From assembly GCF_002954615.1 (NCBI RefSeq), contig NZ_MSCJ01000001.1:2046001-2110000 (forward strand): DNA of 64,000 nt, given 5' to 3'. The position numbers were made by a program, and so were the translations under genes. Below are positions 23,798-47,206 of this stretch, piece by piece. This DNA comes from Photobacterium angustum. GTDB taxonomy: Bacteria; Pseudomonadota; Gammaproteobacteria; Enterobacterales; Vibrionaceae. Under the pieces are notes generated by a model. That model was not told the origin of the DNA, did no database searches, and saw only the letters and a list, made by a program, of their open reading frames with translations. Numbering within the stretch: the stretch's first letter is position 1; each line of letters opens with the position of its first letter.

Positions 23798-23806
23798 GGG
23801 GTGAAT
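23798..23806 (+). promoter_or_regulatory. Unusual ptsH ribosome binding site
   Basis: GGGGTGAAT directly before the ptsH ATG (23808). GGGGTGA is an atypical Shine-Dalgarno form. It is complementary to the C-rich segment of the RNA gene at 46784-47171 (8 Watson-Crick pairs plus one GU). Confidence 0.6.
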
Positions 23807-23807
23807 T

Positions 23808-24095
23808 ATGTATCAGAAGCAAGTTGAAATCACAGCACCAAATGGTCTACACACTCGTCCAGCGGCTCAGTTCGTTAAAGAAGCAAAATCATTTGATGCA
23901 GATGTGACTGTAACTGCTAATGGCAAAAGCGCTAGCGCAAAAAGCCTATTCAAGCTTCAAACTCTTGGCTTAATCAAAGGTGCACAAATCACTATCGCTG
24001 GTGAAGGCGCACAAGCTCAAGAAGCTGTTGATGCTCTAATTCAACTGAAAGAAGATCACGACGGTTCACCAGTTGCAATGTTCCGCGAGATCTAA
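23808..24095 (+). CDS. ptsH: Phosphocarrier protein HPr
   Basis: HPr carries phosphate from enzyme I to the sugar-specific EIIA proteins of the PTS. The protein has the active-site His15 in [16 protein letters not shown] and the conserved [15 protein letters not shown] around Ser46. It has 95 residues rather than the usual 85: from about residue 81 it diverges from E. coli and Vibrio HPr and ends [16 protein letters not shown] see no sign of a frameshift. It is the first gene of ptsH-ptsI-crr, 54 bases before ptsI. Confidence 0.96.
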
Positions 24096-44643: not shown

Positions 44644-45102
44644 TTATTTTTTAGCGATTGGATCGACAAAAGTAACCGCCATATCCCATGGTTGTTCAAT
44701 CCACGTATCTTGTGGAATATCAACAACATAATCATCAACTAAATGTTGACCAGCAGGCTTTGCGCATACTGTTACAAATTTACCACGTGGGTACAGTTCA
44801 CGAATTTTTTCAGCTGTACCGCCCGTATCGACTAAATCATCAACAATAATAAAGCCTTCACCATCACCTTCTGCTTTCTTGATCACACGCATATCACGCT
44901 GGTGATCATGATCGTAGCTTGAGATACATACGGTATCTACATGACGAATACCCAGTTCACGCGCCAAAATAGCAGCAGGAACAAGACCGCCACGGCTAAC
45001 AGCAATAATACCTGTCCACTGCTCAGCTGGTAGCAACTTTTCAGCTAGCTGACGGGTGTAAGTTTGCATGTTATCCCAAGTGATGATGAATTTATTACTC
45101 AT
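44644..45102 (-). CDS. gpt: Xanthine phosphoribosyltransferase Gpt
   Basis: Gpt converts xanthine and guanine to their nucleotides with phosphoribosyl pyrophosphate. The 152 residues match E. coli Gpt: [40 protein letters not shown], and the PRPP-binding motif [30 protein letters not shown] is the ribosome binding site. The purine permease gene lies upstream in the same direction, so uptake and salvage of purines are encoded together. Confidence 0.97.
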
Positions 45103-46461: not shown

Positions 46462-46503
46462 GTTTCTCAGTTCCTTGGAGATTGACACGTTAGTATTAAG
46501 CAA

Positions 46504-46783: not shown

Positions 46784-46814
46784 AAAAAAAACGCCGCTTC
46801 AAAACGAAGCGGCG
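46784..46814 (-). terminator. Terminator of the RNA gene
   Basis: CGCCGCTTC (46792-46800) and GAAGCGGCG (46806-46814) form a perfect 9-bp GC-rich stem followed on the minus strand by T8 (46784-46791). It ends the transcript that starts near 47171 and is not linked to any longer ORF. Confidence 0.93.
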
Positions 46815-46914
46815 GCGAATGTTGCAAATAATCGATCACGATTATTTAGTATTCTCAAGTTAGGGGGTGAACAAGCTGTTCAGTTAACTAGTCAGCAACT
46901 AGATAACAAAATTC

Positions 46915-47004
46915 TTAGTAACCAAAGTAGTTAGGGTAAGTAAAGTTACCTGTATATACAGAGCGGTTATTCCAAAAGTGTGTAATTGAATCAAAAATTT
47001 TCAT
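46915..47004 (-). CDS. 29-residue small protein (VcdP-like)
   Basis: The ORF runs ATG to TAA for 29 codons with AAGGTGA 6 bases before the start. The peptide begins MKIFDSITHFWNNRSVYTGN and ends NYFGY, rich in aromatic residues, without a membrane helix or signal. It lies inside the terminator-bounded RNA unit. Its length equals that of V. cholerae VcdP as I recall it, which binds citrate synthase. Whether the sequence matches needs an alignment. If it is not VcdP, it is still a well-supported small gene. Confidence 0.7.
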   Translation of the reverse strand: MKIFDSITHFWNNRSVYTGNFTYPNYFGY

Positions 47005-47030
47005 TTTAAATCACCTTATAAATAAGTAAT

Positions 47031-47069
47031 CCAAATTAACCACATAAAAACTATGTGCTTAATCCTTGG
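47031..47069 (-). promoter_or_regulatory. Long hairpin before the small ORF
   Basis: On the minus strand CCAA-ATTAA-CACATA pairs with TATGTG-TTAAT-TTGG around a GTTTT loop, interrupted by a two-base bulge and one mismatch. It ends about 11 bases before the ribosome binding site of the 29-codon ORF. Confidence 0.65.
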
Positions 47070-47177
47070 AGGGTAAAGACCATCGTGGTCGCACTTATCT
47101 CGGTTCCATGGAGGCGATATCTCGGGTTCATCCTGAACGTGTACAGTGTTTTCTCATACCTTTATGAGACTGTCTAA

Positions 47178-47206
47178 ATCATAACCATTACGTAATTTAC
47201 TTTCAA
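47178..47206 (-). promoter_or_regulatory. Sigma-70 promoter of the RNA gene
   Basis: On the minus strand TTGAAA (47201-47206), a 17-base spacer and TATGAT (47178-47183). Two TGTGA half-sites at 47225-47238 upstream are CRP-like but do not form a good palindrome. Confidence 0.75.

Follow-up and report, generated by a model that had tools for sequence, protein, structure and literature searches.

The RNA gene lying between a purine permease gene and pepD in the window (the whole 64,000-nucleotide stretch of DNA analysed here) is, with high confidence, the orthologue of vcdRP, and a dual-function RNA, probably CRP-controlled, explains the locus as a whole. A homologue of this Vibrio cholerae gene had been proposed in a first-pass annotation, and the proposal is now supported by synteny, a peptide family match, the published coordinates and a shared seed. 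All the parts listed from the sequence (promoter, ORF with ribosome binding site, C-rich segment and terminator with T8) were found on the minus strand (Table 1); they make up 388 nt in all, where about 390 had been noted, and the setting between the permease gene and pepD was borne out. From the position of the -10 box and by homology, the transcript probably starts near 47171. The window RNA is a further vcdRP, a kind already described, and the peptide already has an NCBI model.

Table 1. Features of the RNA gene, of the adjacent permease start and of the predicted target (window positions)
Feature	Position	Strand	Basis or remark
CRP-like half site TGTGA-N6-TAAAA	47214..47229	-	upstream of -35 box; alignment of 23 loci
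Promoter TTGAAA-17-TATGAT	47178..47206	-	TTGAAA 47206-47201, 17 nt, TATGAT 47183-47178
Leader hairpin 1, GUUC-AGGAU-GAAC	47126..47138	-	GGA in loop
Leader hairpin 2, CUC-CAUGGAACC-GAG	47099..47113	-	GGA in loop; CG just before
vcdP ribosome binding site AAGGTG	47012..47017	-	sequence
vcdP, 29 codons, MKIFDSITHFWNNRSVYTGNFTYPNYFGY	46915..47004	-	NCBIfam VcdP match, conservation, purifying selection
Seed region: GAACAGCUUGUUC hairpin and unpaired C5 run	46863..46881	-	predicted fold
UUCACCCC within seed region	46871-46864	-	sequence
C5 run	46867-46863	-	sequence
Intrinsic terminator with T8	46784..46814	-	stem 46814-46792, then T8
Copy of leader hairpin 2, CUCCAAGGAACUGAG	46466..46480	-	covers SD of permease gene, start codon 46461
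ptsH, predicted target	23798..24095	+	start region GGGGTGAA at 23798-23805; 23 kb from RNA gene

Identity of the locus and of its peptide

The neighbours were identified by Pfam as a permease (PF00860), a phosphoribosyltransferase, an M20 peptidase, a protein of the DNA polymerase IV type and FrsA. As in vcdRP, the RNA gene lies between the counterparts of vc2278 and vc2279, which we take to be the permease gene and pepD respectively, in agreement with the syntenic locus of a V. cholerae-like genome (L068). Of 28 loci taken from the listed peptide-search matches, 26 have gpt, permease and pepD as neighbours, the remaining two being second copies. Among the best 80 named loci, the PepD of L068's genome was closest to those of V. 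mimicus (94%) and V. metoecus (92%), V. cholerae itself not being among those 80. The V. cholerae numbers given in PMC8672173 fit L068 unadjusted: the ORF at 104-193, four C at 229-232 and the last T at 306, with TGTTCACCCC at 223-232 and the -10 box seven bases before position 1. The phosphoribosyltransferase gene (44644-45102, minus strand) scored 275.6 bits on the NCBIfam Tet(34) model, below its cut-off of 345, and passed the xanthine phosphoribosyltransferase model; by the NCBIfam cut-off rule it is an ordinary purine salvage gene.

The window carries a 29-residue VcdP-type ORF upstream of the seed. VcdP was the sole NCBIfam match of its peptide, over the full length (E 4.5e-13, 48.6 bits), 1.4 bits short of the curated 50-bit cut-off of the equivalog model NF053523; by NCBI's rule the peptide is not an NF053523 call, yet it is an orthologue by locus. 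The model gives 66.5 bits to the V. cholerae-like peptide and 67.5 to the V. parahaemolyticus-type one. When aligned, the window peptide proved 59% identical to V. cholerae-like VcdP, and the peptide is kept in related genomes. At the DNA level, matches were obtained in 22 of 40 genomes: 21 of the 24 belonging to the genus, counting the own genome, and one outside the family (L022), which is AT-rich and was set aside as a chance match. The three genomes of the genus without a DNA match were G010, G012 and G018, and a peptide search found a divergent version in G010 and G018 that the DNA search had missed. A peptide profile reached 263 of 296 genomes of the family and 12 of 13 genera at the loose limit of E 1, at which some of the weakest matches will be chance. 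Peptide matches outside the family were dropped, G338 and G522 for a stop inside and G419 (L181) for having no leader alongside.

The pooled pN/pS was 0.235 over 30 distinct same-genus ORFs, and both other frames contained stops in all 30, a sample chosen by a pattern demanding the core FWNNR or close forms and thus favouring conserved ORFs. Residues 15-18, four positions at which replacement inactivates V. cholerae VcdP (PMC8672173), fall on SVYT, of which T18 is invariant and Y17 is present in 14 of 15 same-genus peptides. The same source describes binding and activation of citrate synthase by VcdP in V. cholerae. The SMFTVIFA phenylalanine of NADH-sensitive citrate synthase was found in all seven proteins compared, and we read it as the F383 of PMC8672173, the numbering being off by a few residues. 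A single citrate synthase gene, carrying this phenylalanine, was found in the own genome (G000) versus two in the V. cholerae-like G251. Separately, in Vibrio tapetis subsp. quintayensis (L148) leader and seed are kept and the ORF reads MSSASFWSSSYVCVTNAVNFKNFTGFGY, most of the VcdP core being lost.

Promoter-like sites found by pattern alone (7 in 2 kb, 6.1 expected) were not above chance, while four terminator-like sites were found by pattern with 1.4 expected. The promoter is backed by alignment, because a TGTGA element is conserved in place upstream of the -35 box: counted by eye, it stands at the equal position in 21 of 23 aligned loci, the exceptions being f11_G033, with CGTGA, and f25_G441, with none. 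The V. cholerae-like locus has a full CRP palindrome, TGTGATTTTAATCAC; in the genus of the window the TGTGA is correctly placed and the right half-site is degenerate. Repression of vcdRP by CRP has been demonstrated for V. cholerae alone (PMC8672173). None of 100 shuffles folded as well as the 388-nt RNA (z -3.3), and none of 200 as well as its 3′ part (z -6.2). Could the ORF be a chance one, in an unrelated intergenic transcript that resembles vcdRP? The chance-level promoter pattern and a peptide score under the NCBIfam cut-off would fit such a reading, to which we give next to no probability: synteny, coordinates, purifying selection and the conservation of leader and terminator oppose it, and comparison already refutes it.

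Nothing near the gathering score was found in Rfam for the RNA or the leader (window and six loci), and the window RNA had no match in phage or plasmid collections. With a second copy, the plasmid collection gave one match, a 31.8-kb V. parahaemolyticus record filed as a plasmid (L350, NZ_CP099936.1 15917-28141). It carries the vcdRP locus, unannotated in its gene table, with the chromosomal neighbours from permease to proB (permease, gpt/tet(34), frsA, crl and proB) on one side, and looks like a piece of chromosome.

The C-rich segment, its predicted target and relatives with the peptide

The C-run of the window RNA, five C ahead of the terminator, is predicted to be unpaired, 3′ of a GAACA..UGUUC hairpin. 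A run of at least four C was present in 26 of 26 main-locus copies and the GAACA..TGTTC hairpin pattern in 13 of the 26, which makes the C-run a general feature, unlike the hairpin. TGTTCA[CT]CC was found in 19 of these copies, and UGUUCA beside the C-run is absent in the other 7. When the 3′ segments were compared, UUCACCCC turned out to be common to the window RNA and the V. cholerae-like RNA, with a ptsH start region complementary to it. As target candidates we took, from the own genome, 12 genes for PTS EIIC and 3 for HPr-domain proteins; apart from HPr, the PTS names were read from protein starts. The strongest duplex among these was that of ptsH (window 23808), pairing UUCACCCC with GGGGUGAA at -21.2 kcal/mol; only 1 of 286 background start regions (464 kb, own genome) was as low, and GGGGTGAA occurred in none of the 286. 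GGGGTGA stands ahead of ptsH in 30 of 30 kept same-genus loci (52 genomes with a match). The complementary stretch of ptsH is also its SD and the seed is invariant, hence no covariation.

Three transporter genes of the own genome did not rise above background: 12 of 286 background regions were as low as the first, at -17.9, 39 of 286 as low as a treB-like gene, at -14.3, and 80 of 286 as low as a nagE-like gene, at -12.3. By the same method, the V. cholerae-like genome gave -18.6 for a treB-like gene, -18.2 for a nagE-like gene, -14.2 for ptsH and -12.2 for a ptsG-like gene. In V. cholerae, VcdR represses ptsG, treB, nagE and ptsHI through the C-run with Hfq (PMC8672173), and the method therefore recovers the known targets only in part. 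In the own genome, the best-supported target of the C-rich 3′ segment is ptsH, by predicted pairing.

Several relatives have leader and peptide and, by eye, no C-run outside the terminator stem: all 15 loci examined of family f25, most of which have a C-run inside that stem, and all 11 of family f2. The f25 locus adjoins pepD, with frsA, proB and proA further on (from ORF reading). VcdP was the sole model matched by f25 and f2 peptides, far below the cut-off (24.0 and 19.8 bits for f25, 19.4 for f2), so that leader and place suggest the membership of these two families more than the peptide does. Family f11 (two loci), where the peptide tested scores 67.6 bits, above the cut-off, has a shortened seed, UUCAUCCCUA; from ORF reading, its locus sits between pepD and gpt or genes close by. 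Leader and peptide without C-run were also seen in second copies in two same-genus genomes; counted from the list, the leader is strongly matched in 43 of 52 genomes of the genus, and matched a second time in 2 of the 52. These second copies (L178:2571-2765 in G162, and L179 in G060) are unlinked, with a terminator close behind the ORF, and their peptides resemble that of L063, which belongs to another genus.

One could then suppose that the gene is mainly an mRNA for VcdP and that the C-run is not a working seed, as the lack of a free C-run in f25, f2 and the two second copies would suggest, together with transporter genes of the own genome predicted no better than background. We regard this as improbable: the run of at least four C in every main-locus copy and the good match of the ptsH start region to it argue for a dual-function RNA. 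Because other-family relatives and second copies keep leader and peptide without the free C-rich seed, these two parts may be older than the sRNA part, although both gain and loss of the seed are possible in the history.

The leader hairpins, a putative CsrA site and the permease start

The leader, rather than the ORF or the seed, was the most conserved part and is shared by four families. Its consensus over 44 chosen sequences comprises a GYUC-GARY stem around a loop with GGA, one pair of this stem being U-A for C-G in some, then CCG, then CGCCUCCANGGAACYGAG. With no structure supplied, RNAalifold proposed two hairpins, each with GGA in the loop. Hairpin 1 is paired in 42 of 42 distinct rows, and both sides change in two of its four pairs. 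Hairpin 2 is invariant except at N and Y in all 44 aligned rows; since it never varies, its stem is neither supported nor refuted by covariation in the leader. The hairpin 2 motif occurs twice in the window (0.02 expected, one mismatch allowed). The exact string GCCTCCANGGAACCGAG was found in 41 of 295 genomes of the order, one each and in families f1, f2 and f25 only (f11 carries U for Y and is hence missed), and its reversed control in none of the 295. By eye, a VcdP-like ORF follows the string in 30 of 30 loci examined out of the 41. Of 119 distinct motif instances, 112 were followed by a VcdP-like ORF according to a pattern, which took the wrong frame in at least two f25 rows and overlooked real ORFs among the 7 others. 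One divergent group within the genus (L070-L073) has different letters at hairpin 1, GCAC..GUGC around a longer loop that contains GGA, and keeps CUCCANGGAACCGAG (by eye).

In a two-hairpin shuffle test on thirteen leaders other than the window's own, 2 to 8 of 300 shuffles were as good in ten leaders; the result was weaker for L021 (23 of 300), L174 (20 of 300) and L072 (124 of 300), and the L070-L073-type loop is too long for the search used in this test. A class-wide search of 369 genomes with a leader model, with strict filters in force, gave matches in 13 genomes at E 0.01 or better; besides the own genome at 62.8 bits, the other 12 (19.8-25.5 bits) were taken as chance.

In the Csr RNAs of V. 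cholerae, CsrA sites are recognisable by a GGA in the loop of a hairpin (PMC7858070), and both predicted leader hairpins present it. The gene csrA and CsrB-family RNAs, with loops like that of hairpin 1, were found in five of five genomes examined. The own genome has four CsrB-family RNAs above cut-off, three of them clustered on one contig (G000:C1:2285902-2287701, G000:C3:731967-732266). We put at about even the chance that the leader with its two GGA loops is a CsrA site controlling translation or stability of the RNA. Several observations speak against CsrA: the fixed flanks GCCUCC and ACYGAG exceed the needs of a GGA site, hairpin 1 of the window reads UCAGGA, not ANGGA (14 of 44 rows depart from ANGGA), hairpin 2 is invariant, the shuffle result is weak for some leaders, and Vibrio has no copy at the permease.

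Instead of binding CsrA, the leader might switch translation itself, perhaps through a ligand or another RNA, with AUCGCCU pairing the vcdP SD AGGUGAU. Five to seven pairs are complementary in most lineages (by eye), and the CGCC just before hairpin 2 is otherwise unexplained. The mean pairing probability exceeded 0.5 in only 10 of 43 scored leaders (46 tried; for L068 a wrong, shorter start was used) and was 0.07 in the window, any CCUCC tends to match an SD, and no Rfam family was matched. Such a switch is thus unlikely, though not negligibly so. The motif could also be the trace of a conserved upstream reading frame encoding a leader peptide: an AUG stands in the hairpin 1 loop in 34 of 44 rows, and in one frame two variable motif positions fall on third codon positions. 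With no AUG in 10 of the 44 rows and motif frames 0/1/2 at 22/1/11, the frame counts disfavour this, and we consider it very improbable.

The main text of PMC7858070, on V. cholerae CsrA, has no vcr, gltA, vc2278 or vc2279. PMC8672173 mentions several highly conserved sequence elements, though its main text nowhere uses the terms CsrA, Aeromonas, Aliivibrio, Moritella, leader or hairpin. In the accessible open-licence literature we came across no account of the leader as a regulatory element, nor of a tie to CsrA or of relatives with the peptide only.

A relaxed form of hairpin 2 had two matches only in 464 kb of the own genome, the leader itself and the SD of the adjacent permease gene; the copy over an SD counts in favour of CsrA. 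Of 117 distinct permease start regions, 27 have the strict form, and every one of these belongs to the genus of the window (genus being assigned by locus); the other 9 permease rows of the genus have near variants, and Vibrio rows have no copy. At the permease site of L067, from another genus, UUUC-CAAGGAAC-GAAA forms a compensated stem (by eye). With one such hairpin over the permease SD and another in the leader, a single regulator could act on both genes in the genus of the window.

Proposed mechanism and comparison with known systems

Extending the V. cholerae case through the conserved TGTGA, the promoter of vcdRP itself would drive its transcription under an ample supply of PTS sugar, when cAMP is low. 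VcdP, as in V. cholerae, would bind and activate citrate synthase. The unpaired C-rich segment would pair, with Hfq, with the start of the ptsHI mRNA and lower its translation, an action shown in V. cholerae and represented here by the predicted ptsH pairing; some PTS transporter mRNAs are perhaps also paired and lowered. The two GGA loops of the leader may be presented to CsrA, which would control translation or stability. By homology with V. cholerae, PTS flux and the citric acid cycle would be linked, as the first-pass annotation had it.

For the history of the gene we offer a tentative scenario that we hold possible rather than probable: vcdRP began as a CRP- and CsrA-controlled mRNA for a micropeptide that activates citrate synthase, shared by at least four families of the order, the PTS-repressing segment was added later in the lineage of Vibrionaceae and f11, and in the genus of the window a CsrA-type hairpin was also placed on the permease start, so that purine uptake came under the same carbon signal. 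Only a small number of dual-function RNAs have been described, and which of their two parts, coding or pairing, arose first can seldom be seen; leader and peptide without a free seed in other families make this question of origin testable. If CsrA does bind the leader, a single small RNA that balances sugar uptake against the activity of citrate synthase would be under both of the global carbon regulators, CRP and CsrA.

The closest known system is VcdRP (Vcr082) of V. cholerae, described in PMC8672173. The window RNA shares its neighbours, its order of parts (CRP-like element, promoter, leader, VcdP ORF, C-run, terminator), a VcdP-type peptide and a ptsH start region complementary to the seed. 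It differs in its length of 388 nt instead of 306, in C5 instead of C4, in its degenerate CRP site, in the longer stretch of leader, 95 nt, that separates hairpin 2 from the ORF, in the copy of the leader hairpin at the permease start and in its peptide, at 59% identity to the V. cholerae-like one. SgrS/SgrT of enteric bacteria, as presented in the discussion of PMC8672173, similarly places a small ORF upstream of a distal segment repressing PTS mRNAs in one RNA, but has another peptide with another target and another transcription control. Moreover, in SgrS/SgrT the pairing part is conserved and the ORF patchy, whereas leader and peptide of vcdRP reach further than its seed. RNAs of the CsrB family (RF00018), including those of the same genomes, likewise carry GGA in short hairpin loops; unlike them, vcdRP is a coding RNA whose leader has two such sites in most lineages, with fixed flanking letters.
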